From Polytrichum commune (Eukaryota; Streptophyta; Polytrichopsida; Polytrichales; Polytrichaceae), in assembly GCA_950295325.1 (NCBI GenBank), contig OX485806.1, positions 25,048,001 through 25,112,000 on the forward strand: 64,000 nt of DNA. The letters run 5' to 3'. The translations under genes and the position numbers were made by a program. How positions within the stretch are numbered: the stretch's first letter is position 1; every line of letters starts with the position of its first letter. Below are positions 1 through 31,654 of this stretch, in pieces. The notes under the pieces are model-generated. The model worked only from the letters and a program-made list of their open reading frames with translations, made no database searches and was not told where the DNA came from.

Positions 1-108
1 TTGAGTTTCCAGTGCATAAACTGTGCTTTCCAACTCTTCTACTGATCTTGAAAGGAGCTTTGCTTCATGCTCTTTCTCTTCCGCCTGTGTCTTACTCAGC
101 TCTGCAAT
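1..108 (-). CDS. Kinesin-12 exon 29 (partial)
   Basis: After the donor at 287, an acceptor (CTATGCAG) precedes 108, and the frame reads [29 protein letters not shown] and onward to the window edge. This closely matches the distal stalk of plant POK kinesins, where an IAEL...EEKE...[12 protein letters not shown]-like motif precedes the C-terminal region. The phase fits exon 28 exactly. The remaining C-terminus lies outside the window. Confidence 0.85.
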   Translation of the reverse strand, partial: MAELSKTQAEEKEHEAKLLSRSVEELESTVYALETQ

Positions 109-3100
109 CTGCATAGAGGAGTAACCCAACATGCAGCCCTTGAGAACAAAAGAAGAGATGGACAGAGACAGGATGTACATGTTGCCTGTCCCAAATGTAC
201 CACATATAAACTGGAAAGAATCTTGGGATTGACCAGAGAGCGTGTAGTGATTGGCAGACCGTAAGGCAGGGTAGAAATGGCCTTACCATTCGAGCTTCGG
301 ATGCAACGGCATCACGTTCATCCACCATCGCTTGTGACATTTCCAGCTGCTCGTTCAAGACAAGCACCTGTGTTTGCAGGCGGTCTCTTTCATTTTCTAC
401 CTCCTTCAAATCACCTGTGGCATCTTCAAGTGCATTTGACATGTTTTGCTCCACAATTTGCAGCTCATCTTCCAAGCTCTCTATCATCTGCCGTTTCTTG
501 TCAAGCTCAGTTTCCAGTGCACAGGCAATTCCTTTCCAGTGTATAGATTGGTTCCTGGCTTGGATTGCTTCTTCAGTCATTTGTGCAAGCTCTGCCTCCA
601 ATTTCGTCCTTCTATCTCTCTGCAAGTTCAACTCTTGCTGTAAAGATTCGGTTGCAGCACAAGAAGTTTCATATTCTTGCCTGAGTTGCAGGTCCTGAAG
701 CGCAGACTCTTGTAACAGACTGATGTCAGATTCCAGGCTCTGCAGTAAGTCATCTTTCCGCTTCATTTCCCTCTCAAATGCCTCCATTTCCAACCTTGTC
801 TCACTTAATAATGTTTCTGCAGCTCTAGCTTTCTGCTGGTTCGCATCAATCTGGTCCTGAAGATCTTTCACTGTGGACTGCAGCTCTGATCTCTCGTTTC
901 GAAGGGATTTGAGCACCTCTTGTTGAGTGCAGTGTGTGGTGAAGTGCTTCTCCATGCTAGTCTCATTTATTTCAAGCTTTTCCTGGAGCTCAGAAACCAT
1001 TGCGGTGAGACTTATTCTTTCATCCATCAAAGCTTCCCTGTCAACATTAATCTCAGATATATGCCTATGGCATTCTTGTAGTTGCCCCTGCAAGGAGTCC
1101 ACTTCCTTCGTGAATACTCTCTTCGTTGCAAGAAGCTCTGCACACATGCTTGCTAATGTGATGTCTTTCTCATTCGTGGCTTCCTGGACTCTCTGCTGCC
1201 AGTTCCTCAACTCAGTCTCTTGGAGTGTTTTGAGGTTCTCAACCTCATTTTGTAGAGCACTCACTTCGGCACCTTTCTGTTCCTCTAATTGTGAGAATGA
1301 TGTACTCAATTCCTCTAGTGCAGCTTCACAATATCGAATTTGTGCCCTGAGCCCGGAAACAACCTGTAGCTGGGACTCGACCTCAGCAGTGCGGTGCATC
1401 TTCTCTTCCTCTAGGTCGCTGACCTGCTGGAACGAAGAATCAAGCTGACTTTGGAGTAGCGAAAAGTGGTCAACAATTTCCTGCGATGATTGGAGCATTT
1501 GTGCATTCTGTACACGGCTCTGCTGCAGCAAGTTCTCAAGATGGGTTGTAGCAGTTTCTTTTTCCTTTGCCTCCTGGGCAGCACATTGCATCTTACCTGT
1601 AAAAGCCTGCAGCTCAAGTTGCTGTTTAGATGATGCAACGAGGGCCTCTTGAAGGTCAATCTGAAGCTTCGACACCTGCGATTCCAAATTGGAGCTATGC
1701 TGACTCTGTACTTCGAGTTCCTCTTTCAGCACTTTTTTATGCATCTCCAAGGTGTGCGTCATTTCAAGAAGGTGATCTCTTTCACGTTCAAGCTGAGAAG
1801 AAGTCAGAATGTTTTCCTGCAAGGATGCGAGTGTCTTTGCAGCTTGAGCTTGGCTGTGTTGCAGATCATTCCGAAGGACAGTTGCTATGTCACCTTTCTC
1901 CTCCACGTCCCTCAAGGTGCTTTCGAGCATATTTTTCAGATTATCCACCTCAAGTTGTTGTTGGGATGATGCAGTGCTGGACTCCTGCAAGTTCGCTTCG
2001 AGTTGCACAATTTGCATCTCCAAAGAAGATATTTCACACATCCGGGCCGCCAACCCCTCCTCAAGTTCCTTCTTCTCATTTTCCAAGTTGCTCAAGGTTT
2101 CCAAGAGCCTTTCTCTTTCACATTCCAGCTGTGAAGTAGTTTGAATGTATTCCTGCAAGGATGCTAGTGTCTTTGCAGTTTCTGCTTGGCTGTTTACCAG
2201 ATCGTTCCGAAGGACATTCTCCATGTTATCTTTCTCCTGTGCCTCCCTCCAGGCGCTTTCAAGCATGTTCTTCAAGTTAACCAGCTCAAGTTGTTGTTGG
2301 GATGATAAGGTGCCAGCCTCCTGCAACTTCCCGTGGAGCTGCACAATTTGCAAATTCAGAGAGGATACTTCACACGTCCTGGCCGCCATTCCCTCCTCCA
2401 CATTCTTCTTGTCATTCTCCAAGTTGCTCAAGCTTTCCAAGAGCCTATCTCTTTCAAGCTCCAGCTGTGAAGAAGTTAAAATGCTTTCCTGTAAGGATAT
2501 GACTGTCTTTGCAGTTTCTGCTTGGCTGTTTACCAGACCGTCACGAAGGACATTTGCCATGTCATCTTTCTCTTGTACCTCCCTCAAGGCGCTTTCAAGC
2601 ATGGTCTTCAAATTATCCAGCTCAAGTTGTTGTTGGGATGATGCAGTGGTGGCCTCCTGCAACTTCGCCTCTAGCTGCGCAATTTGCAAATCCAGAGACG
2701 ATACTTCGGACATCCTGGCTGCCATCCCCTCCTCCAGTTCCTTCTTCTCATTCTCCAAGTGGTTCAGGCTTTCCGAGAGCCTGTCTCTCTCACTCTCCAG
2801 CTGTGAAGAAGTTACAATGCTTTCCTGCAAGGATACGATTGTTTTTGCAGCTTCTGCTTGGCTGATCTCCAGATCTTTTCGAAGGACATTTGCCATGTCA
2901 CCGTTCTCCTTTGCCTCCCTCAAGGCACGTTCAAGCATGGTCTTCAAATTATCCAGCTCAAGTTGTTGTTGGGATGATGCAGTGGTGGCCTCCTGCAACT
3001 TCGCCTCTAGCTGCGCAATTTGCAACTCCAGAGACGATACTTCAGACATCCTGGCTGCCATCCCCTCCTCCAGTTCCTTCTTCTCATTCTCCAAGTGGTT

Positions 3101-6100
3101 CAGGCTTTCCGAGAGCCTGTCTCTCTCACTCTCCAGCTGTGAAGAAGTTACAATGCTTTCCTGCAAGGATACGATTGTTTTTGCAGCTTCTGCTTGGCTG
3201 ATCTCCAGATCTTTTCGAAGGACATTTTCCATGTCACCGTTCTCCTTTGCCTCCCTCGAGGCGCATTCAAGCATGGTCTTCAAATCATCCAGCTCAAGTT
3301 GTTGTTGGGATGATGCAGTGGTGGCCTCCTGCAACTTCGCCTCTAGCTGCACAATTTGCAACTCCAGAGACGATACTTCAGACATCCTGGCTGCCATCCC
3401 CTCCTCCAGTTCCTTCTTCTCATTCTCCAAGTGGTTCAGGCTTTCCGAGAGCCTGTCTCTCTCACTCTCCAGCTGTGAAGAAGTTACAATGCTTTCCTGC
3501 AAGGATACGATTGTTTTTGCAGCTTCTGCTTGGCTGATCTCCAGATCTTTTCGAAGGACATTTTCCATGTCACCGTTCTCCTTTGCCTCCCTCGAGGCGC
3601 ATTCAAGCATGGTCTTCAAATCATCCAGCTCAAGTTGTTGTTGGGATGATGCAGTGGTGGCCTCCTGCAACTTCGCCTCTAGCTGCACAATTTGCAACTC
3701 CAGAGACGATACTTCAGACATCCTGGCTGCCATCCCCTCCTCCAGTTCCTTCTTGTCATTCTCCAAGTGGTTCAGGCTTTCCGAGAGCCTGTCTCTCTCA
3801 CACTCCAGCTGTGAAGAAGTTACAATGCTTTCCTGCAAGGATACGAGTGTTTTTGCAGCTTCTGCTTGGCTGATCTCCAGATCTTTTCGAAGGACATTTG
3901 CCATGTCACCATTCTCCTTTGCCTCCCTCGAGGCACGTTCAAGCATGGTCTTCAAATTATCCAGCTCAAGTCTTTGTTGGGTTGATGCAGTGGTGGCCTC
4001 CTGCAACTTCGCCTCTAGCTGCGCAATTTGCAACTCCAGAGAGGATACTTCAGACATCCTGGCTGCCATCCCCTCCTCCAGTTCCTTCTTGTCATTCTCC
4101 AAGTGGTTCAGGCTTTCCGAGAGCCTGTCTCTCTCACACTCCAGCTGTGAAGAATTTACAATGCTTTCCTGCAAGGATACACGTGTTTTTGCAGTTTCTG
4201 CTTGGCTATTCTCCAGATCCTTCCGATAGACATTTGTCATGTCGCTGCTCTCCTTTGCCTCCCTCAAGGTGCTTTCAAGCATGGTTTTCAAACTATCCAG
4301 TTCAAGTCTTTGTTGGGTTGATGCAATGCCCTCCTCCTGCAACTTCGCCTGGAGCTGCAAAATTTTACTTTCCAGAGAGGATACGTCAGACATCCTGGTC
4401 GCCATCCCCTCCTCCAGTTCCTTCTTATCACTCTCCAAGTTGCTGAAGCTTTCCAAGAGCCTGTCTCTCTCACACTCCAGCTGTGAAGAAGCTACAATGC
4501 TTTCCTCTAAGGATACAAGTGTCTTTGCAGTTTCTGCTCGGCTGCTTTCCAGATCATCCTGGAGGGCATCTGCCAAATCACCTTTCTCTTGTGCCTCCTT
4601 GACAGCGCTTTCAAGCATGGTCGTCAACTTATCCAGCTCAAGTTGTTGTTGGGTTGATGCAGTGATGGCCTCCTGCAACTCCACCTGGAGCTGCTCAATT
4701 TGCAATTCCAGAGTGGATGCTTCAAACATCCTGGCCGCCAACCCCTCTTCCAGTTTCTTCTTGTCATTCTCTAAGCTGTTCAAGGTTTCCACAAGCTGGT
4801 CTCTTTCATATGCAGAAGCTGCAACGGCGGTCTGTGAAGATACCAGCACCCTCGTATTTTGCTCATAGCTCTCCTCCAGCTGTTTATTCAGGTGGGCTAT
4901 CATGACCTCTTTCTCACGCAGCTCACTGCCTGTGCATTCCATCACAGTTGTGAGAATTTCCCGTTCAAGCTTAAGCTTAAGTATTGTGTCGTTGGCCTCT
5001 TGAGAGATGGCCTCCAGCCGTACATTCTGTCCCTTCAAATCGGCCACAGTATGCATATACACATCAGCTGCCTCCTCCAACACTCTTTTCTCATTCTCCA
5101 AGATGCCCACGACCTCAACAGTAGTCTCAAGCTCACCCACATGCTGCCGTAGATCATCAAGTTCTGTGACCAAATCCGCCATCCTACCTTGAATCAAGAC
5201 AACCTCACTGGCATTCACTTTAGCTTCCCTGCTGAGGGCCTCAATTATCATGTTTTGGTCTCGGAGCTTTGAAGACGCTTCCTGCAGCTCATCTTGCGAC
5301 TCTCTCAGTTTGCCCTCAAGGCTACAGATGTTGTTCTCAAGGCATATTTTCTGGTCCAAGAGACTGACAACTTCCAGTTCCTTTGATTCCTTGGCACTCA
5401 TTTCATCAGCAACCAACATCTCCAGCTGCTTGATAGTGTCTCTCAAGTTCTCCATCGTTGCCAACTGCATCTGTGCTGACTCACCCAGAGTGAGCTTTTG
5501 CGCCTCCAGCACCCTGAGGTTCTCAGCGCTCATTGTTAGCTCTTGGCACTTGTTCTGGTACAACCCATCGAGCTCAGCAATTCGCAGTAAGCTACACTCG
5601 TGCTCCGACGACAGGTTTGTAATACAGCTTTCCTTTTCAGCTATAGATAGTGTTGCCACTTGAAGCTCCTTTCTGGTAGCTGCCCAGCCTGTCTGTTGAA
5701 TCTCTATCTCATCCAGTGCATTTTTTAAGGCTGCTTGTGATGATTCCAATGACACCTCAGCGCTCCTCAATGCGATCTGCAGGGCCTCGGTCTCCACACC
5801 ATTCTTATGCATCACATCCTCCGCATCTGTGAGCTTTGCATTCAGTGCAGCCACCTTCAAGTGTGCTTCCTCTTTGGCGATCATCATCTCACCTATCTGG
5901 ACCCGAAATTCTTTCTCAATCTCATGGTGAAGGTCAGCTGGGATACGCAAACAGCCCCCCTGGAGCAACATTCGCATGTCATGGATCTCCAGTCCCAACG
6001 CCTGGATGTCTCTCTCCACATGATCCATGGTGATGGAGACTTCATCCTCAATGATGTCCATCATCTCACCGCCCTCCAGAACACTCTCCTCCTCCTTCAC

Positions 6101-9100
6101 CTTCCATTTGAGCACCTCACGTTTCTCACTCTCGCTAGCTTTCACGAGAGCATTGATAAGTACCTCCGCCTCCTTCAATGTGGCCAGCCCAGCCTCGAAC
6201 TGTCTCCTCAAAACCGTCACTTCACTGCCTTTCTCAATGGCATCCAGCCTTGCGGCCTCCCGCTCTGCCTCCAGCTCCTCCCTCTGCCTGCCCCACTTGT
6301 GCACGAACTCCTCCAATTTGACCTCTGAATGCACCAGAACATCTTTCATCTTGTGCAACTCAACCTCGAAATGCCCCACCTGAGCCTCTCGGCAGCTGAT
6401 TTCATCTTGGGCTGTCTTCAATTCTCGTGTCATGTTGCTCAGCTCGTTCTCGAGCTTCGTCCTCTCCTGGAGGGCATTCACAAGCTCACACTCCATCTGC
6501 CTGTTACTCGAAATGATGTCCTCCATTTTCGCCTCTGAATGCACCAGAACATCTTTCATCTTGTGCAACTCAAGCTCGAGTTGTCCTACCTGAGCCTCTC
6601 GGCAGCTGATCTCATTTTGGGCATTCTTCAAATCTCGTGTCAGGTTGTTGAGCTCGTCCTGGAGCTTCGTCCTCTCCAGGAGGACATTCAGAAGTTCACA
6701 CTCCACCTGCCTGCTACTCGAAATGGAGGCATCGAGCTCCGTCTGCACTGACAAGATGGTCCTGTCCTTGTCAAGCACCTGCGCCCGCAAATTTTCACAC
6801 TCCCTTCTTATCTTTTCAACCTCCCTCTTCAGACCATCCAAATGGTTTTGTATGGGCTCTGTATGTGCAATAGACCTGTTTTCGTTGCAATCTGGGATTC
6901 GATTTGAGCAGCTGCTGCTCTGGTGTTGAAGATCAATCGTGTACTGTTCCCAATGTGAGAGCTCGAGCCGCAGCGCCTCGTGCTCAGCATACAGCTGCTT
7001 GTTGCTTTCCTTCAGTGCTGAACTTTTTTGCAGGAGCTGGGCAATGCCCGCATCTGCAGCAGATAGCAAGGACCGCGCCTCTGTAAGATCCACCTGGGTA
7101 ATTTTTGCAGAGGTTTTCAGTTCGATATAGTCCTTAGAAAGCTGGGTTATGTGATTTGACATCCCTTCTCTTTCGTTTGCCCACTGGGTTTCAAGCTCAC
7201 CTAAACGCTCTAACAGTGTTGCATAATTCTTTGCAGCCGAAACCCCTTGTTCCTCGGCCTCCTTCAAGGTTTGGCAATACCCTCGCTTTTCCGCCTGCCA
7301 TTGCACTTCCAAAGCCTCAAGATTCTTCTGGAGGTCAGTGAGCTGTGCAGAAACCAAGCTCTCTTGAGAATTTGCATCGTGGAGTTTTACCTCCAGAGCT
7401 TCCTTCTGAGCTACGAGTGATGAGAACTCCATCTCCCGGCATTCCAAACAACTCCTCAGCTTCTCATTTTCCACGGAGATTTCTCTTAACTGGGACTTGC
7501 ATTCCTCTTCTGACGCAGCAAGCTCCTTCATCAACAATGCTGAGACATCCAGTTTCTCCTGGGCTTCATTGGCGTAGTCTTCAATCCCATTCAACTCCTG
7601 TCGTACCATGGCCAATTCCTTCTCCTTCTGCATGACAAGCGCCCTCGACTGCTCTAAAGCATTCTCCAATTCTTCCACTCGCGCAACGAGGGTCGAATTC
7701 TCTGAGTGTGAGTTGTCCAGCTCCTCAAGCAGCCTATTCTCGAGAGCAGCGGAGAGATCCTCCATCTGTTTCTTGTCCTCCTGGGCTCTTTCCAGCTCTT
7801 CTTCCATGTTTCTGCAAGAATGCCGAAACTCACCTTTAATACACTCATTCTCAGTTTCTAGCTTCTCCTTCACATCGACGAGGACATCTATTTTCGCCTG
7901 CATAGCTTCAATTTGACGGTGCGCTCCTTCCAACTTCTCTTCAGCCTCCTGGATCTTAAGCTTAGAACTTTCTGCTTCTTCCCTAAGATCTTCACCCAAT
8001 TGGCTTAGCTCTTTCACTTCCATCTTCAGTTTGCAATTTTCATTCACAGACTCCTCTTTGGCATGTTGAGCCTCCTCCATGCGCTGTGACAGTGTGATTT
8101 CTCTGGTGCGCGCATCATCCATTTCAGATTGCAGAGCGGCAAGAAGACCTTCCAGTTCAGCCAATTTCCTTCCTCTCATCTCAAGCTGCAGCACAAAGAC
8201 CAGAATGCAAGTAAATTTCTCAGGAAAATCAGAGAATGAAGCAGCTGCCAAAAAGCCCAAGGATATAACAACACAATGGACACATCTTCCAGTTGGAAAG
8301 GAAGTGATAGACCTATGACTTCTGATGCTATAGATGATGTTAACTGGATTGAGTTGATAGCATCATAGGGATGAAGATTACAAATACCTCTTGGTCACAT
8401 TCTTCAGCACAATGTTTCCAAGCTTGGATCTCATTTTCCAGTTCGGCTGCTACCCTGTTCCCCTCTTGTAACAAAGTCGTTTTCTGAGATTCAGCTTCAG
8501 ATAGTTGGGCCTGAATTGTGTAGAGTTCAATGCGTGCAGCTTCTAGCTCCTCCTCCAGGTTTCTGCTCTTCTCCTCGACTTCCTTGGCACGCGACTCGAG
8601 CCCCTCCTTTTGAAGAGCCCAATTCTCTTGTGCAACCGCCATGGCAGCTTGTGTAGTGGTCATCTCCACTACCTTACCCTCTGAAACCTGCAGCTGTTCC
8701 GTGATCAGGGTAACCTTCTCCCTCAGAGCTTCTAAAGCCTCCCCACTTTCAGTCACCTGGATTTCGAGCTTCCCCTTTTCCACATCCAGTCTCAGCCTTC
8801 GATCTTCACATTGCAACAACTCCTCCTGCACCTTCATGAACTCGTTCTGCATCTCAAGTAATGCCTGATCCTTATTCATGATATCCTTTCTTGCTTCATC
8901 CAAGTCTAACATCCATCGTTGATTATGACTCAGGAGGAGCTCAAACTCATGCATATGCTCCCTCACTTGGGCTGCAGACTTCTCAATGTCACTCCGTAAG
9001 CCCGTGATCTGATTGTCCCGTTCCTGTAACGAGGCATCAAACTCAGCATTCTTGAGCCTCTGAACTTCTTGATCTGCCACTCTGCAATCCAGGGACCAAC

Positions 9101-12100
9101 ATACCAGAGTGGAGAGAACCATGGACGACTTATTCCACGTCTCTTCGGTTCTCTCCAACTTCAATGCAAGTTCATTCTTCTCTATAGCCAGCCGCTCCCT
9201 CTTCGTCTCGCAGCCCATCAATTCTATCTTGAGGTTGGAGATTTCTCCTCGCATCTGTGCTAAAACAGTCTCGCTCTGGCTCTGTTGCACACCATCAAAC
9301 AAAGTACTCAATTCCAGGCTGCTGGTGCCTTTGTTTTCGAGCAATGGGTTCTGTACATAGATTTCAACCTCTGTTTTCGAATCTGCCTCCTTCAGAAGAG
9401 CGTTTGACGGGTCTACTTGAAGATCATCTTCGAAGCTTGATAGAAGAGAACGTTTCTCTTCAACACAATTTCGCTCCACCTTCGCAGAGCTATCTGTAAC
9501 CATCTTTTCAGAAAGCCACGACAAAAGGACCGAGAAAACGTTCAACTTCTTTTCCAGGCCTCGATGATTCGTAACACTCCCTTTCCCCTTTGAGCCAACC
9601 GCAACTGCCTGCGGTGAAGGTGAAGTCACCATGTGCTTGAGCTGCATCCTACTTGGACTAGGTGAAGTCATCATCATGTGCTTGAGATGCATCCTGCTCG
9701 GACTGGGTGAAGTCATCATGAGCTTGAGATGCATCCTACTCGGACTGGCATCTCCCAATAACAATGATTCAGAACGTAAGCTTTCCATCTCATTAACAGC
9801 TTCAGTAAGGGCATGGTCTCCTTCATTGAGGTATTCAAGGAGCCTGGTTGTGGCCACCTCCCAGTTCTGGAGTGCCCTAGCCTCCACGTCCTTCTGTCTT
9901 GATAAAGAATTGGCCGGGCTCTTGCTCTCTTGCCGCTGAACAGCCTCAACGACGAGTTCTACATTTTGAAGCTCCGTGATAAGTTCGGTGGCAGTATTCT
10001 TTGCTACGGCTTCCCTCTGCTCACCTAGCTGAAGCTGCGGTTTCAGATTCATTAACTCCTCCTGCAGAGATGTGATGATTGCTGAGGCTTCAGGCTCATC
10101 ATCAGATCCCATCTTCTGATGCTTCTGGATGGATTGAAGGTCTCGTTCTCCCTGCACATCCTCGACATCGGATACTTCAAGTTTACTGATGGCATCCAAG
10201 TTTTGATCCTCAACAGTTTGTTCACCTGGATAGTGAACATCGGGAGAGGATTTCTGGAGGATCTCGTGATCGGGATTATGGCCAGTCTCCTCCACGGTAA
10301 CTTTCCGGTGCGCGGCAAGGTCCAGCAACTCCAAGTCGAGCTCCAACTGCTCGATTGTGGCTGCATTTGTGGTGTCATCAGTTGTCGTCCCTTGAGCGCT
10401 ACCAGCTTCCTCCAAACCCAATGGCGACATACAATAAGAGCAGCTTGTCTTCTCGTTTGTGTTTGACAGCTTCTCAATCAGCCAGTGCGCCTTGTCAAGT
10501 TCTTCCCGCAGTTCAGATTCCTACAAATAAATAAACCATTCAATGAAGATGGATGATGTCAAATGCACTTCCCTTGCTAATCCTTGCGGCACTTCCAAAC
10601 AAAAATCATTCAACAATAAGAAGGCACGCCAATAAGCTCCTATAGAGGACAAGTAAACTACACTAAATTGTCCTATTATCTATTGTGAGATGAGCCACAG
10701 TAATTCTTTAGAACCCACAGTAATTCTCATAATGCAATTTACTATGGGCCACGTATATTCCATCAATGCCAAATCTTCCTTTTAAAATTGGTGTGACCAC
10801 ATTGATTGTTTTCGTAGGAAATTGATGTGGGTGACTAAAGGAAGGACCCGGGGTCTTGGGCCCACATCATTTCCACTCTGACTAAAGGACAGTTTGTGTA
10901 CTTTCGAAGATTGGTTCCCCACCTTCATGCGAGCGGCAGCTGCTGAATCTTCAATAGCTTTCAGAGACAACCGTTGTTCCTCCGCCATGGCCTTCGTCTC
11001 CAATCGTATCTGCTCCACAGATTCTTGCGCTGACGCAGCTGTTTCCTGAATATGCAACACCATGAAAGCATAACAGTATTATACATGCTTGACTAACGGT
11101 AACGCCACCCGATTACAGTCCTGTTAGGGCACTTCCCAAATACGCAAGTTGCCATTACCACAAAGGGAGGAGCCGATGTTACTTGTATACCTGAGCAAGT
11201 GCAAGGCTTGATTCAGCGGACTGCAAGCGAACGGTCAGCATTTCAGCTGCATCCAGTGCACCCCTCATTTCCTGGAGCACCGCAAGAGCATCATCAGTTA
11301 GAATTAAAAATTGAATATGTGTATGTGTGTGTGTGTTTTGAAAATTTTACATTTATAATTCTTTCACCGTATCTTGGAGAATCACATGTTGACCTTGTAA
11401 CGACATAAGCATAAGAAGGTGATGAAAGGTTGAGGCCCAGTGTGACGAGCAGCCGGTTCCCCTATATCCTGCAGATTTTATATAAACATTTTTATTGCTG
11501 TAAAACTGAAGGGTTTATCCGGTGAAATGTTACCACAATGAATATTTTTCTGGGTCCAAGGTACCTGAAGCTCAACTTGGAGGTCGGATGCATTTTGTAG
11601 AGATGCCTTCAGCTGCTCATCAAGCTGAGCCCGTGTTCTTGCCTCGTTCTCAGCTCTTTCATCACTCTGTTGGGACACGTATAAGATTAGAGCAGGCCTT
11701 TCCTATTTTACGCATTTGCATCAGACGACGGCTGCAAGCCCTCATGTAGCCAAATGGGTACAGGTTTGTGCTTAAATTTAGAAGCCGGACCTGCCGTAGC
11801 TGGGCTTTCAGTTTCGAGATGAGGTCTACGTGTTGTGCATGACCCCATTCTACAGCTTCTGCATCCAGCGCCTGCATCTGAATAACATTGTGTTAGCCCC
11901 TTCCTTCTGTGAGACTACAGGTACAACAATCTTGGATTAGCTTTACCCCAATCTTACGGAAACGAATGAGTTTAGTAGTATCTGATTACCCGAAGTTGTT
12001 CGAGTTCCTTCGAATGTGCTCGACACTCTGACTTCACACCCCGAAGCTCGAAGTCCACTTCATCAAGTTGCCTGCCACAAGATCCAAACAGTGATTTACA

Positions 12101-19290: not shown

Positions 19291-19327
<37 letters not shown>
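19291..19327. repeat. (CT)n microsatellite
   Basis: A near-perfect CT run of about 37 bp, 240 bp upstream of the kinesin start codon. Confidence 0.98.
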
Positions 19328-19331
<4 letters not shown>

Positions 19332-19398
19332 ACTCAGCCACTAAGTCACTAAGCCCCGTCTTGCTTCAGCGATCCTCTCCTTGGGACGTATGCCTGGA

Positions 19399-19401
<3 letters not shown>

Positions 19402-19460
<59 letters not shown>
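19402..19460. repeat. (CT)n microsatellite
   Basis: A perfect CT run of about 59 bp in the kinesin upstream region, the longest simple repeat in the window. Confidence 0.98.

Positions 19461-23932: not shown

Positions 23933-23961
<29 letters not shown>
23933..23961. repeat. (GA)n microsatellite
   Basis: A near-perfect GA run of about 29 bp in intergenic DNA. Confidence 0.95.
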
Positions 23962-23964
<3 letters not shown>

Positions 23965-24299
23965 GACTAATCTTGTTTGGATTAGACTCTTGTCACAATA
24001 GGTTATGTCACACCTATTGTAGAGTCATGTTATGTAGAATAACTGACAACATACATCCCTGTCAAAGCATGGTCTCGATAATCTCATGGTATATTATTAT
24101 ACATTTCTCAGTACATAAATCCTTTGTTAAGTAGAGACTTGTAGTAATTCCTGTTTGAATTAATAGGTATCCAGTATGACATATACGAGTCATTCATAAC
24201 CCCTTTGCAGACATGGTATTCCACATTAACAGATTGCTGTGTAATATATATATTACACCCACCTTCCTGCAGAGATATATAACGAGCTATATCGGTTCT

Positions 24300-26400
24300 T
24301 AGATATGCCTTCACCAGTTCCCTATTGCCAGTTTACTTGGAAGCAACCCAATATGACCAGTTCAGATGGTTATTTGGAAGAACATGTAGGTCGTGAGTTA
24401 CCCTGGTTTAATACACCCAAGGACACATCAATGTAACCACTACTCAGATGGTTACTGGGACTGTCTAGTTGTATGAATATCAGCTTGATTATGAAAGCTT
24501 ATTCATGTAATACGCTCCTATGTAGTTGTCGAACCAGCATAGAGAGTAAGTTTCCACAGCTAAGGTATCCAATTAATCGACCGGCTCTCAATCTGTTCTT
24601 CGAACAAAACATCCTAATAAGAGTGTACCATCCCTTTATACTTAGCACCCAAATGGTCCTGATAAAAATATAAGCACTCTTTGTATTTTCCTTCCCCCCT
24701 GTATTACTAGCTTCTCATGTGGCCACTGAGCGTACTCAGAGAAGGACTACTTCTTTTCTGTGTTATTTCAGTAGATTCGTTTCGACATAGTAAATAGTTC
24801 TGTGAACCAGGCTCTCATATAGTTATTGAGACTGCACAGAGAACCCTATGACTTCTTGCTGCAGGGATCAATTTTAAGAATTGAGCTAGTGCAGATCAGT
24901 TCTTATGAGCCTGACACAAAATTTCCTTTCTTAAGGACCCTTACCAACACATCTCTACAGTATATCATGTACTTGAATGGTAACCATAAGAATCGGGGGT
25001 CATGAGACTCCGCATGATTTTTGTACAATTTTAAGTGCTCTTTCTTAGATGGTTGTTTTGGGACTACATAAGGCCCGAGTATTTTCGGAATCATCTTGAT
25101 CTGAAAGTACTCCTGTATACATATCTCTCATATGGTCATAGTTCCACCATAGAGTGTAAGTTTCCTTTAAACAGTATATAATAGTATATCTATTCTCCCA
25201 GCCCCCCAACAGATATCAGAAATCCTTTGGGTATGATTAAGCTCTACATCCTTCAGTGGTATATATTTATGATCAACTCTCAAATAATCATTAATCAAGA
25301 ACATAGAGCGGAAGAATCTTTGAACTTCCAGAGCATTTCTATATAGCTTGTTCCCACATAGTTACTGAGACTACTCAAAGACTGACTACTTCAGTTCTTT
25401 GTTATCTTAGATATGATAAAACACACTAAGAGCGTCCCCACCAGACCGGGTACACGCCAAATAGAGTATATAATATTTTATACCTTTGGGGAGCCCTCCA
25501 TCTTGGGCGGGGCAGCTCATCTTGAGTCAGAGCCCACCAAAGCCTAGGCATACCCCCGGTATAATTAGGAAGCAATCAATAAGACAACGACACCTATTAT
25601 CTGACATGGGATAAAGTAGGATATCAGAGTATCTGATATTAAAGTAATCTCTTGGCGGGCCGGAGGAGGGCTGCCATATGAACCATTTATGGCGGGGGAA
25701 GGCCCTTACTATACCCGGGCCGGTTCTAAATTATGCCGGACCGGACATTGGTGGGGCTCAATTTATGCCGGTACCGCCACCTAAGAACCCGGGATGCCCC
25801 ATTTTTGGCGTTGGCATGCCCTATGCCCGGTCTGGTGGGGACGCTCTAAGGAGTTAGCTCTCATGTGGTCTCTGAGTATACTTAGAGAACCGAATTATGG
25901 TTCTATGACTTCATATTCGTGTGACCTGTTCTTGATTGTTCATTTGAGAAGAGCGTGAGTTATGGGTTAACTCAAAATAATTGTACAGTTTGTGTGACCA
26001 CTTCTCATAAAGTTATTGAGAATATAGAGGGTATGCGTATTTTCGAAATTATCCTAATTCGAAAAACACTTCTATGTGAATATCTCTCAAATGGTCAATA
26101 AATCACCAGAAAGTCTGAGCTACCTCTGAAATACTTTATACAGCAGTATTTCAGACACCTCTCAAATCGTCAGCAGAAGTATGTACAGTATGAATATACT
26201 CAAAATCAGTGTCCTCAGCAATATATTCTGATGACCAGCTCTCAATTGGTCAGTAAGAAAGAATATAGGTTGGAAAGTAGTTTTGAGATTTTCAACAACC
26301 AATTTCTTTGTGTCCCTATCTCTCTATGTTACTGATACTCCGCAGAGACTAGCTGCATTAGTACTTCGGTAACTGAAAGCACATCGAATAGTTCAGTTAT
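24300..26400. repeat. Degenerate tandem array, unit about 70-80 bp
   Basis: A diverged motif resembling GCTCTCATATGGTTACTGAG followed by ACTCAGAGAA recurs at roughly 24355, 24441, 24510, 24583, 24652, 24714, 24812, 25044, 25127, 25270, 25350, 25858, 26005, 26086, 26160, 26240 and 26325. Most spacings are close to 70-85 bp or twice that. The array is interrupted by the MITE at 25430-25846; removing the MITE leaves an 88-bp spacing there. Individual copies are poorly conserved, so this is an old array. It could be a satellite relic or the 3' region of the neighbouring retroelement. Confidence 0.6.
25430..25846. mobile_element. PIF/Harbinger-type MITE with TAA target duplication
   Basis: A 417-bp element with perfect 21-bp terminal inverted repeats starting GAGCGTCCCCACCAGACC (left arm 25430-25450, right arm 25826-25846). 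It is flanked on both sides by TAA (25427-25429 and 25847-25849). Three-base TWA duplications and GAGC-starting termini fit Harbinger/Tourist-like MITEs. It has no coding capacity and its GC content exceeds its surroundings. It is inserted into the tandem array. Confidence 0.88.
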
Positions 26401-27374
26401 TTAAGAAACAAAGTAATAGCAGGGAAGTATATTGGAATCTCTCTGCAGCTTATGAGTTTTCACAACATGTTCATATCTCCTGACTATCTTATGTAAAAAA
26501 CAGTTGCAGGTATTAGTCAGTTTGTAGAGTGATTAAAATGTAATTATCAAGAAAGATAATACTCATAATCAATTTTATGGGTTTCAAAGAGAAATTTCTA
26601 GAAAAATTGTAATGAGTGGACAGTTTCTTCGGAAGGTGCGCAACACTTGTAGAAGAGGTCCTCACCTGTTCCCATGTTTCCCAAAATACCACACGATATG
26701 TTAGTGGAACGTACAACAGGTGTATTTAGACCTCTTACTTGTTATCGATGTCAACAAGGCAATACCACTTCCTTGGAAATAGGTACAATTCATCATACTC
26801 TACATATTTAGTTGCATAAAAAGAAAATATATCATGCAATTCTGAAATCAAGAATTCATTGAATTTAAGTGAATAGTTGATTGTCCCATGTAGTCATATC
26901 TTTCTTCAAGTGTAGTCTGTGCAGATTTATCTAATCCTGGATCTACACCTTGAAGTCGTCTTGAGATGAGCTATTCTTGTTCATCTTGAAGCTACTGTGG
27001 GATCTTGAACAGTGTGAATCGTGGTTTCCACATAGGAACTCCTCTGAGCAGATAACTGATTTTGCCCACACTGCGTTAAGCTCTGTAGACTAGAACTATT
27101 CTGTGACGGACTGCCGTAGTAACCTCAATTGCAAACAGGTACCACACAATCTGCCGTTACTGTTTGCAAAGGCCTGCCTATGCGGCGCTCTTAGGCATAA
27201 TACTCTATAGAAGCTATCTCACAATGTCCGGGGTAAGTCTGTCAGAAGTGCCTTCTGTGTCTCAACTCACAATATTATAATACTCGTTTTTTTCCCGGGC
27301 AGCCCGTAAGATTTTCAGTAGAGCCCGTTAATCAAGAAATCAAGATAGAGAGAGAGAGTCCACCAGCCTACCTT
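26400..27374. other. Intergenic, no gene recognised
   Basis: AT-rich sequence between the tandem array and the retroelement. I see no conserved ORF or element terminus. It may be the 3' untranslated part of the minus-strand retroelement. Confidence 0.4.
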
Positions 27375-27790: not shown

Positions 27791-30184
27791 TTAGAAAGAC
27801 GAATCTTTAGGAAATGTAGAAACTGACCTCTCTAAGTTGTGAACAACTTTCATGAGATCAAATCTGAGACCTGGGAAGGAGCCATGTCGGAGAAATTTTA
27901 TCAGTCGACTTTTTAGTTTGTGTCGCCGAAACCCATTTGCTGTTAAAACTTGCAGCAAAAAATCCAATTCGTTTAGGGCATCATGTTCGTTGCTAGACAG
28001 GTACAGGATTGGGAAGGCTTGGGACTGTATGATGTTGTAAGATTGTGAAACGCTTCGGTTGGATCTGAATTGTAAGAACTGGGAATACTGGAAAGGGAGG
28101 TTTCTGCGTTTGTTAAACTTGTGTGTTCGAAACACACCATCGACTTCATTTATGACAGATATCTGCATATTCATGAAATGAGCGTTGGTTCCACGTTGTG
28201 GGAACATAGCGGAAAATCTATCGATTTCACTTTTAATTTCGACAATACCAAGAGGGTAGATCCAAAAGGGATTGGATGCAATTCTTTTGGAGTTGGGATC
28301 CAAAAATTGTAGTACATCCCCGTTATTCAGAATGCAAAGGTCATCTATGTATCGAAAAAAGTATCTGAATCTTTTCATGAGATCAGTTCTCCCAAGCGTA
28401 GCGAGTCGAGATATGAAACTGGCTTCATAATGCAAGAAATACATATTGCACCAGAGTGGACTACAAGAAAAGCCCATGGGGATTCCAGAAATTTGTTGTC
28501 ATACTCGATCTCCTAGCGTAACAAAGCAATTGGAACTTAACCAATGATTGAGACAAACTAGTCTGTCCTCAGTAATTTCTACCCACAGTCTACCGTTTGG
28601 GCTGTGAAATGCCCATCTTGTCGAAGAGGCAATCATCTTTCTTTCATCAAAACGTACCCAAAGTTTCTGTTCATTCCTGGGATGGTTGATCCGTTTTTGC
28701 TGGTAAGCAAACGAGATTTGTTTCGAAATAGCACCCATTAGATTGTTATTACCCTCAAGCGGAATTGCTTCATAGCAGTGGGCTATGTCAGCAACGAAAA
28801 TGTCATGTATCTTATCTGGCAAATTGAGTGTCAGGTCGATAACTGAGTCTATCATCCAAAAGTTTTTGATCACAGTATCCATTAGCGAACTGTAAGTCTG
28901 AGTACGTTTGGCAAACCATTGCTTGAATACTGGGATGATTCTCATTAGAGCTGTCGTGATAAATTGAGCTATAGTGGAGAATATAGACTTATGTGCGTTC
29001 GTGAGCTAGCGGTAAGTATTCTTATGCTGCTTGAACGTTCCCATTAGATATGGGAGTCTAGCACTCTGCAGAGGAATTTCGGATAAGAAGGAGCATATTT
29101 TCTCAAACACCTCCTCTGCCTTCCACAGAGGGTTAATCCACTCCCCATTGTGCAGACAAGGAGCAAAGTCCTTACCTTGGAGCCACAGTAAAGCTTGTGC
29201 ACGCATGTGGTTGACGCAGATAAAACTAGCATTAGAAGAGGCTTTGTCAAGCCCCGCCACAAACAGAAATTACTGGATCCATTGCAGCTCGTCCATGATA
29301 GAATGGATTTTTTTGAAAGATGGCTGAGAATATTTGAATCCTCCAACATTCAGTGATGTTTTTTCTTTTAGAATTGCCCATGATCTATTTCTGATCCAAG
29401 GGGTTTGGTCACACGGATCAATTTGCAAAATCATGCATACCTGTGTCCAGGCATCAAAAACAGTCTCCACTACTTCGTGGAGAAGAGTTTGACGAAGTGG
29501 GATATGGTTTAGTCCATTTGTAAAGTTTTCTTTTAGAGTACTATCTCTAATGATCTCAGTATCCATTGTCTGAACATGCACGTCTGTTACCGAGAGGATC
29601 TGCATACTAGGGGTTATTCCAGCTGTATTAGGATCCAAATATTTTGAAAATCTCTTGGGGGAATTATAGGGACATGGTGATCTAAAAGTATTGTCGTCAA
29701 AAATGAAGTCCCGGAAGACTTTTGCTGGTCGATAAGCCAAAGAGGAAAACTGCTCATGGTATCGCCACCCGAATGTGATGTTCTCGAGATGCGGTATTAG
29801 ATCTTCATACCTTTGTCTCATGAGAACATCCATGCATATGTGTTGGATACTAATCCACTCCATAGCCCTATTTGGGTATAGTGAATGAACAAAACCTATC
29901 CTCTTTAGGTTGGATTCTTTAACCAACATGTTCCTTCCCAGTATATCTTGTGTAATTGATCTTGAAATGGCAAGTATAGGAGTGAAATCTGTACATACCA
30001 GAGTCATTGAGTCAGAATGCTTATTCCCAGCTAATATTTCTGCCGAAAGCTGGAGAAGAGATGGTGGACGTATTCGAGCCGCCGCTTGAGCCATCAGCCC
30101 CATTATGGAGTTCACTATTGTGAAAGAGAAGCTCTCTAGGAGACTCAGAGACGTATGGAGCATTTCGTACTCGCATGTGACCAT
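27791..30184 (-). pseudogene. Reverse transcriptase ORF2 with three premature stops
   Basis: A single frame of 798 codons from the ATG at 30184, interrupted at 29272-29270 (TAA), 29008-29006 (TAG) and 28501-28499 (TGA). RT motifs follow in order: AGLDKASSNASFICVNH; LMGTFKQHKNTYR; motif A ADIAHCYEAIP; motif B GIPMGFSCSPLWCN; motif C FRYIDDLCILN (about 28341-28353); then a thumb-like C-terminus (FNKRRNLPFQYSQF). The N-terminal 300 residues have no recognised domain. The LDKAS and K.HK motifs before motif A and the linker after YIDD favour a Penelope/telomerase-type RT. No endonuclease domain is seen at either end, as in the endonuclease-deficient Penelope-like elements. Confidence 0.75.
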
Positions 30185-30191
30185 TCTGTTG

Positions 30192-31622
30192 CTAATGAAC
30201 AGCAGAAGAGCTAGTTGCTCCAAAGCGTCTGTGGTTGCTGTTGTTATACGAGCCTCTTCCTCTGCCCAGACCCTGGGTTGCAGGACGTTGGTGAGATGCG
30301 AATCCACGGCCACGCCCAAAGTTATGAGTGTGTTTATGTGGGTTACTGCCAAAGTCCTGGTTTAAATCCGGTAGAGCTCTTTTGAAGGAGAGATTTGTAG
30401 TGTGGCTGAGCCCTGTATTCGAGCTAGGACGGATCATCCTCTCGATCTTTCTGATGCCAACGTCTTCTCCATATTTGGATAGAAGTTTGTTTTTTGGATT
30501 AGTTGTATATTCAAGAGCACCTTCTATCATCATAGAGCGAATATGTGCAAAAGTGATAGATGCTTTAGCTGCATCCCTAGCTGCTGTCTCCAGCCACCCA
30601 ATCAGAGCTGCATATTTCGAGCACAAATGTCCTTTCGCAGGAAAGAAGACATCCAAATTGTGAATCATGCACCATACCGCATAGTCGAACCAGATCATTT
30701 TTCCTGTGCACGCCTCTTTGGGTCCATTTAGTGGACACCCACAACGAATAAACGGGCGATTGACATTCCACCAATTCTGGCGGTGTTTCTTATCCCTTTG
30801 AAGTCCTAAGGGCAGATCTTGCCTAGTGCAAACATGTACCCCTTCAGTGATAGTACATTTTTTGGGGTCATATGCCGAAATGGGAAAGACAGCAGTAAGC
30901 TTGCACCCATTTTTGATAGGTTGCTTATTGTTAACAACATTCGAAATAACAATAGCAATTTCTTGGTCAGAGAGGGATGCCCAACACTTCCACATCTCTA
31001 CTGTGATGGGACCCAAGTGGTTAATGTTCGGGTGCATCCACATCCGATTCTCCAGACCTCCAAGTCGCAGCTCCAACTGCCTTGGGGGGAGCCAGGGTAC
31101 CGAGGGTCCCAAACCTGATGCTTCAAGTTTGTCGAGGTCTGCAGCGGCTTGATTCGCAACTATCTCAGCACAGTATTGGATGATCGAGTCTTTCTCATCC
31201 TCCGGAATCGGTAACCGTGTTAAGAGTGATTTTGGGCGTTCTGAAACAACATCTCGTGTTGGAGTGTTTCCTATGATCAAGAGTTTGCTATTTCCCTGAT
31301 TGGAACCATTTTCCATCAAGTTCTTGACTTCCGGATTAGCACTCAATAGGGCATCATCGATAAGTTTGGTCTGCACTGCCATTCGCTCAGAGTCTTAGTC
31401 ATCGGTGGCCAAAATATTGGGTAATTCGTCAAACAACTCCTGGAGTTTCCGCATACCCTTCTCCTCAGAATGTAAGCAGGCGTCAAGCAGCATAGTCCAA
31501 TATCTTAGATCCAGAACCTCAAGTAAAGTAGGGGCGTGTAGACCTCCGTTGGTGTCCGCAAGAGCCTTAGTATCCAGTTGTTGCACCGTAGTGTGGAAAT
31601 TAACGCTAGCAATTGAAGCCAA
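30192..31622 (-). pseudogene. Retroelement ORF1, RG-rich tail, one internal stop
   Basis: One frame of about 477 codons broken by a TAA at 31397-31395. No family is recognised. It has an acidic, helical N-terminal part, a central region with clustered Cys (FIRCGCPLNGPKEACTG) and many Trp/aromatic residues, and a C-terminal tail NFGRGRGFASHQ...GLGRGRGSYNNS typical of single-stranded nucleic-acid binding. By position it is equivalent to the gag-like ORF1 of retroelements. The upstream frame meets a TGA before any ATG, so the original start is missing. Function is inferred from composition and position only. Confidence 0.6.
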
Positions 31623-31654
31623 CGTGGCCTGGATGCCTGGTGTGAATCATCAAC

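Follow-up and report, generated by a model that had tools for sequence, protein, structure and literature searches.

A probable Penelope-like retroelement family without recognisable endonuclease at CT microsatellites of Polytrichum commune

The window analysed here, a stretch of 64,000 nucleotides from Polytrichum commune (assembly GCA_950295325.1, contig OX485806.1; C4:25048001-25112000; the genome measures 408 Mb, and seven of its contigs are large), carries on its minus strand what is probably a decayed copy of an active-looking Penelope-like retroelement lineage that lacks a recognisable endonuclease and is primed at CT/AG repeats. A first-pass annotation made from the letters alone had described the element as a two-open-reading-frame (two-ORF) Penelope/telomerase-style retroelement without recognisable endonuclease, and profile comparison and Pfam searches support the presence of such a reverse transcriptase (RT) in a green plant. 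Beyond that description, the copy in the window turned out to be dead, its relatives to be bounded by long direct terminal repeats, insertion to occur at CT microsatellites and the terminal repeats to hold a conserved, structured RNA.

The element family, its landing sites and its terminal repeats

The last 235 amino acids of the window ORF2 gave 69 matches in the genome (E <= 0.01), which fall into 54 places separated by more than 5 kb, both numbers being lower bounds, and 14 of the 69 match rows lie inside open frames of 725-867 amino acids; ORF2 occurs far beyond chance. Besides the window, 18 element loci (numbered with the prefix L) were fetched, which fall into two clades, A and B, with ORF2 40-43% and ORF1 33-35% identical between them. 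The genome search for intact copies and their ends that had been proposed with the first description thus yielded open ORF2 frames together with direct terminal repeats and CT-tract boundaries. The terminal repeats, termed long terminal repeats (LTRs) in the following, measure about 1 kb in clade A and about 1.6-1.9 kb in L013 and L015 in copies with both ends, and no long LTR pair was present within the stretch fetched for L011, L012 and L014. With at least 840 bases of each pair read, the two LTRs are 100% identical in nine of 14 elements and 99.7-99.9% identical in the other five. L018 possesses only 195 bases of 5' LTR, 99.5% identical to its own 3' LTR; on its reverse complement (around 1407) the 3' LTR is complete and the 5' LTR begins about 770 bases in, away from the CT tract, and this locus may represent a 5'-shortened insertion or a later deletion.

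Judged from the ratio of nonsynonymous to synonymous substitution rates (dN/dS), both ORFs are under purifying selection, with 0.12-0.17 for ORF2 (three usable pairs of seven tried) and 0.04-0.09 for ORF1 (three of five tried) after the ORF2 pair L013/L015, which was misframed, and pairs with saturated dS had been left out. Elsewhere in the genome the family, low in copy number, looks active and intact, with open ORF2 frames of 725-749 amino acids. For the pairs L001/L003, L001/L004 and L010/L016, dS is higher in ORF1 (1.36, 0.30 and 0.65) than in ORF2 (0.70, 0.18 and 0.26), a gap for which recombination between copies or a codon constraint peculiar to ORF2 could be responsible. The start of ORF2 probably lies upstream and is reached through splicing, frameshift or reinitiation, because the conserved N-terminus of ORF2 precedes the first AUG in 11 of the 13 copies with an unbroken frame (the exceptions are L009 and L016). 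An AG is seen by eye just before this N-terminus in most copies, not all (L001, L003, L010, L013 and others). A fusion of ORF1 and ORF2 by splicing at the nearest GT/AG sites is not claimed, as hand-counted frames misfit in L003 and L008. Relatives in viral contigs could not be confirmed, and the Penelope-type motif pattern was equally not found there.

LTRs also occur by themselves. A 131-base piece of the clade-A LTR gave 813 first-look candidates and the corresponding piece of the window 205, both rough counts, and all 40 candidates scored in each case matched. Ten clade-A sites at a distance from RT copies were chosen; nine of them hold complete solo LTRs, and L040 holds one truncated at the 3' end. 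Such solo LTRs may derive from recombination between two LTRs or, just as well, be direct products.

The landing sites are CT microsatellites. Boundaries were tabulated for 20 of 23 clade-A loci (11 full elements and nine solo LTRs; L017, L018 and L040 were left out for an irregular boundary). In 19 of the 20 the LTR follows immediately upon a CT tract, a TA run intervening in L038; in 10 of the 11 full elements the outer 5' CT tract exceeds in length the one at the internal start of the 3' LTR, and the 3' CT tract reaches at least 10 bases, the element itself coding about eight, in 10 of the 20 boundaries. Exact direct repeats of 3-15 bases abutting the tracts are absent from the 20 tabulated loci except for the TA run at L038.

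For two insertions, the full element L016 and the solo LTR L041, there is direct evidence of a CT microsatellite as the native target; both are located at one CT-tract position within a multi-copy host repeat. Comparison of 5' flanks indicates separate insertions into different copies of this repeat, because each flank is closer to an uninserted copy (L016-L045, 96.1%; L041-L043, 96.7%) than to the other (L016-L041, 91.1%). When the joined flanks were used as a query, 40 of 598 candidates were scored and yielded 76 matching pieces, and all five uninserted copies examined, L043-L047, which are the five best matches in a ranking that favours uninserted copies, keep an unbroken ...GGCAAGCTT(CT)nTTTG... 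at the junction. Furthermore, another LTR abuts across little more than a CT tract in 5 of the 23 clade-A loci (L006, L017, L033 and L040 by alignment, L002 by eye), and probably also at L005 and L007. On the reverse complement of L017, the element has an identical stretch of 172 bases on either side (431-602 and 6715-6886), which belongs to the LTR end of another subfamily; its own 3' LTR is composite and joins the 172-base piece part-way, as by template switching or recombination. On the plus strand of the window (19292-19460), long CT microsatellites of 36 and 58 bases resemble targets and have no element match beside them.

The association with telomeres that the first-pass annotation had raised finds no support in the position of the 54 RT places, none of which lies within 0.1 Mb of a contig end and only three, all on C4, within 1 Mb, with 1.9 expected. 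Host telomeres appear to be kept in the usual way, because TTTAGGG arrays (seen at the start of C1) and a TERT gene are present in the host. The genome also has 13 dynein heavy chain matches at eight places; as such chains are missing from flowering plants and conifers, these matches taken alone point to a host that probably has motile sperm, be it a bryophyte, lycophyte, fern or streptophyte alga. Overlapping matches to IFT57, tried as another host marker, occur at one place and resemble noise from coiled coils.

Each LTR also contains a block of about 105 bases. Here L001 and L010, the ORF2 proteins of which are 61% identical, show 91.7% identity over 120 bases, and a comparison across the clades (L010 against L015) gives 73% identity over 104 bases. 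Three helices were chosen by eye and their pairs counted in 18 sequences (11 of clade A, seven of clade B) on anchored strings, as the MAFFT alignment offsets P3 by two columns between the clades, with one bulge allowed in P2 and P3, swaps included. Native P1 forms 4.91 (A) and 5.0 (B) of five pairs compared with 1.23 when strands are swapped between clades, and native P2 7.73 (A) and 8.0 (B) of eight pairs compared with 3.99, whereas P3 is nearly invariant and hence uninformative (7.64 and 8.0 compared with 7.75 swapped). By these counts the block is a conserved RNA with compensatory pairing between the clades. A pairing AUAACA/UGUUAU that crosses P2 is found in clade A only and is lost in clade B, and a second hairpin, the stem of which varies by eye on both sides between subfamilies in both clades, directly follows the LTR end. 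Rfam gave no credible match for the block in L001, L003 or L010 or on a short stretch, and no hammerhead in L001, L003 and L010 (E <= 10), in the window (gathering threshold) or in a 221-base stretch of L010.

Reverse transcriptase type and known relatives

ORF2 appears to encode a telomerase/Penelope-type RT, in partial support of which Pfam and profile comparisons can be put forward. RVT_1 matched in all nine ORF2 members, with E 4.1e-5 at best; the one member tabulated scored 17.6 bits, the cut-off being 29.6. The other ORF2 matches at E <= 1 comprise five families, each matched in a single member, the best of them an Mre11 accessory DNA-binding domain (E 0.01). The ORF2 profile A1 aligned by hhalign with the host TERT over motifs A-B (E 2.2e-5), and the ORF2 profile aligned with a hand-typed composite, standing in for a real Penelope protein, over 289 columns, from the KxHK motif through the thumb (E 1.2e-6). 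Other RTs failed to align with the ORF2 profile (E 0.74 for an L1-like long interspersed nuclear element (LINE), 0.61 for a second LINE, 0.042 for a gypsy-like element and 0.097 for a group IIC segment), the comparators being single examples, three of the four labelled by eye. With one or two examples each, profile comparison was thus negative for a LINE, gypsy or group II origin, and searching the host for group II maturases brought up three short matches only, each interrupted by a stop. The comparison with RT families that had been suggested at the outset thus sustained the likeness to TERT and the hand-typed Penelope composite, and membership in the Penelope-like order, based on this profile likeness, is putative. 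At L030 (G000:C4:1208900-1211300) a LINE-type RT (GTIQGDTLSPYLF, YADD) resides in a long open frame, unlike the L1-like one of L029.

In eight ORF1 and nine ORF2 members, Pfam listed at E <= 1 neither GIY-YIG nor integrase, RNase H or tyrosine recombinase, with the proviso that HMMER filters discard most matches above about E 0.1, nor did it list an APE or REL endonuclease of LINE type; the two ORF1 matches at this threshold are chance-level, each in one of eight members. With a hand-typed I-TevI domain, hhalign gave no alignment of the family (E 0.56 for ORF1, 0.26 for ORF2). Sequence searches of solved structures returned nothing with the window ORF2, one chance-level match with the ORF2 profile (E 0.47) and 21 with the ORF1 profile (best E 0.32). 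Of the outcomes named beforehand as refuting, the searches made for a LINE, LTR or group II RT and for an endonuclease domain were all negative. ORF1 contains a conserved C-x-C...C and ORF2 a long spacer between RT motifs A and B.

Athena and Coprina are clades of endonuclease-deficient, EN(-), Penelope-like elements. Like the family described here, they combine a telomerase-type RT without GIY-YIG with repeats at the RNA 3' end that are complementary to the primer tract (a putative one in the present family), but they sit at chromosome ends with telomeric junction repeats, while the present family is intrachromosomal, with CT/AG at the junctions of the loci tabulated, and has complete LTRs of about 1-2 kb and a conserved RNA without hammerhead match. 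Craig and colleagues are said to have described in 2021 Naiad/Chlamys elements with pseudo-LTRs, a microsatellite bias and a CxC linker, lacking a hammerhead, in green algae and spike mosses. The pseudo-LTRs, the bias, the missing hammerhead and the green lineage of these reported elements recall the present family, but Naiad/Chlamys joins an N-terminal GIY-YIG to the RT, whereas here no GIY-YIG was found and RT and ORF1 are separate ORFs. Their CxC linker and insertion-in-fingers domain have as merely possible counterparts here a C-x-C in ORF1 and a long A-B spacer.

Canonical Penelope/Poseidon elements share direct pseudo-LTRs and tandem copies with the present family (PMC11167929), but they have a single ORF with a C-terminal GIY-YIG and a hammerhead ribozyme, GIY-YIG and hammerhead both not being found here; the element studied cuts AT-rich DNA, while the family here sits in CT tracts. 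In a review, Selaginella, Pinus and Picea appear among the hosts of EN(-) Penelope-like elements (PMC9033089), and Chlamys elements are on record from Ectocarpus (PMC12477816). The host TERT (L028), which shares motifs A to B with ORF2 by profile, matches the telomerase RNA-binding family PF12009, which is absent among the ORF2 matches at E <= 1, and ORF2, unlike this host gene, belongs to a mobile multi-copy element. LTR retrotransposons are characterized by RNase H, integrase, TG...CA ends and target-site duplication and LINEs by a LINE-type RT with APE or REL endonuclease, none of which was seen in the present family; of the features of DIRS elements, RNase H and tyrosine recombinase were compared, and Pfam listed neither of them here (E <= 1). 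A literature search that had several key Penelope papers and Repbase outside its scope found no description of this two-ORF CT-targeting family.

The decayed copy in the window

The window copy, a member of clade B, consists of an ORF1 remnant followed by an ORF2 remnant with the RT motifs (Table 1). All motifs named in the first-pass annotation are present on the minus strand (LDKAS, 29251-29237; KQHKNTYR, 29032-29009; GIPMGFSCSP, 28486-28457; YIDD, 28351-28340), as is the arginine-glycine (RG)-rich tail of the upstream ORF, FGRGRGF...GLGRGRGSY. The two ORFs proposed there are hence both recognisable, but neither is open. The copy is dead, because the ORF2 frame is broken by three in-frame stops (TAA 29272-29270, TAG 29008-29006, TGA 28501-28499) ahead of the final TAA at 27793-27791 and the ORF1 frame by two (TAA 31397-31395, TAG 30194-30192), and ORF1 also misses its start codon. 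Homology of ORF1 to intact copies sets in abruptly at about 31646.

The element reaches past 27791, the end originally given, through a 3' LTR that closes with CAGCTCT at 23965, followed by a 30-base CT tract. The matched parts of this LTR are separated by about 2.4-2.5 kb and, because the corresponding distance in the LTRs of L013, L015 and L011 is only about 0.7-1.0 kb, a later insertion inside the LTR is likely.

Table 1. Features of the retroelement copy in the window (positions of the 64,000-nucleotide stretch)
Feature	Position	Strand	Remark
ORF1 remnant, RG-rich C-terminal part, 5' end missing	30021..31646	-	family stop TAA 30023-30021
ORF2 (reverse transcriptase) remnant	27791..29962	-	from first residue conserved in both clades
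RT fingers, LDKAS to KQHKNTYR	29009..29251	-	
RT motif A, VADIAHCYEAIP	28760..28795	-	
RT motifs B (GIPMGFSCSP) and C (YIDDL)	28337..28486	-	
(CT)6 tract opening the 3' LTR	27347..27358	-	
3' LTR, interrupted between matched parts around 26519 and 24110	23957..27358	-	LTR end approximate (~23957)
Conserved structured RNA block of the LTR (helices P1, P2, P3)	26634..26764	-	
(CT)15 tract immediately behind the terminal CAG of the LTR	23933..23962	-	LTR-coded CT and probably target microsatellite

Elsewhere in the window, the minus strand of 92-10520 holds two long open frames (2756 and 726 amino acids) of an apparent giant coiled-coil protein with near-identical internal repeats, and between 2145 and 4868 the strand opposite these frames is open as well. 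The segment 53820-54209 matches DNA flanking L015 at about 80% and represents another dispersed repeat.

Priming at CT/AG repeats and alternative readings

Priming on (AG)n ends is proposed because CUCUCU closes the LTR and CT/AG forms the target, with precedents in two relatives. In telomeric Athena Terminons, C-rich repeats at the RNA 3' end apparently aid attachment to G-rich overhangs (PMC12477314), and in a Poseidon element cDNA (complementary DNA) initiates in a stem-loop near the LTR/ORF junction (PMC11167929). By analogy, the element RNA would bear CUCUCU at the LTR end, just before the conserved stem-loop, and an exposed (AG)n 3' end, offered either by a CT/AG microsatellite or by the CT tract that an older copy carries, would pair with this CU tract and prime cDNA synthesis by the ORF2 RT. 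Breakage or an unusual structure might supply the (AG)n end without a dedicated cutter, while ORF1 may coat the element RNA and the structured LTR RNA may position or process the template. Once the cDNA had reached a CT tract at the start of an LTR, its (AG)n end would re-pair with the target tract; a stop at the first CT tract would leave a solo LTR, a stop at the second an LTR-ORF1-ORF2-LTR element.

Several observations weigh against this reading. Motif C of TERT failed to align with the ORF2 profile, the Penelope comparator as a hand-typed composite provides a lead and not a test, E-values from two sequences lack calibration against a database, and the single-sequence fold of the window ORF2 is uninformative (mean predicted local distance difference test score, pLDDT, 32.9). 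In the other 10 of the 20 tabulated boundaries the length of the 3' CT tract does not exceed what the element itself encodes, so that the tract alone proves no target there, and L018 begins inside its 5' LTR, away from a CT tract. Equally, the helices were selected on the same sequences in which they were counted and the comparison amounts mainly to a single contrast of two clades, and identical LTRs and solo LTRs are equally expected from a classical LTR cycle. Finally, ORF1, of unassigned function, could hide a nuclease, and one of the nine ORF2 members matches weakly the Mre11 accessory DNA-binding domain PF22155 (E 0.01).

The last two points lead to the alternative that the family cuts its target by itself, through a diverged or novel nuclease in ORF1 or the N-terminal part of ORF2, for example as a relative of Naiad/Chlamys with the endonuclease on a separate ORF. 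Direct terminal repeats, CT-tract insertion, the unmatched hammerhead, the conserved C-x-C...C and the low dN/dS of ORF1 would all suit such an element, as would the Mre11-like match. On the other hand, neither GIY-YIG nor another nuclease catalytic domain is among the Pfam matches of the members searched, the I-TevI domain finds no counterpart and the C-x-C is located in ORF1, distant from the RT; we regard an own endonuclease as a real possibility, if a somewhat unlikely one. The classical LTR cycle provides a different scenario, in which synthesis of double-stranded cDNA, both LTRs complete, comes before insertion, and host recombination afterwards links this CT-ended DNA to CT microsatellites. 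The near-identity of LTR pairs, the nine complete solo LTRs among ten sites read, a G-rich stretch directly before the 3' LTR and the 172 identical bases of another LTR end on both sides of L017 are in line with it, but RNase H and integrase are not listed, the gypsy-like RT fails to align, the LTR ends by eye are not TG...CA, and a covarying hairpin takes the place of a constant tRNA-like primer site after the 5' LTR (by eye). Together with the missing direct repeats at the tracts, L038 apart, and with L018, which resembles a 5'-shortened product of target-primed synthesis (a later deletion being also possible), these features make LTR-retrotransposon-like movement distinctly unlikely. As for the LTR block, it might act as DNA, carrying promoter or splice signals with incidental pairing. 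ACAGGTGAGG, a good splice donor, is found within it (e.g. L010:6747-6877) in 15 of the 18 sequences from both clades, and the choice of helices by eye is a further argument in this direction. However, both-side changes that keep two helices between the clades are not predicted by conservation of a splice signal or promoter, and we consider the DNA element improbable.

Priming of a Penelope-like element at CT/AG repeats, the reading preferred here, can be extended to a bolder one, which in our judgement is rather doubtful. The family would then constitute a separate two-ORF, endonuclease-free Penelope-like lineage in which CT/AG microsatellites and the element's own termini replace chromosome ends, the LTR block would be a new class of structured RNA, possibly self-cleaving or RT-anchoring, and cDNA copied from circular or tandem RNA would give rise to two identical LTRs or one.

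Relatives of telomerase that lack an endonuclease are commonly assumed to rely on free chromosome ends. An intact-looking family that lands inside chromosomes at a simple, testable sequence, and for which a single genome provides uninserted sites and young copies, allows the source of the primer 3' end to be addressed. Furthermore, the LTR RNA is a candidate for the missing template or priming signal, and telomerase RNA biology offers a direct comparison.

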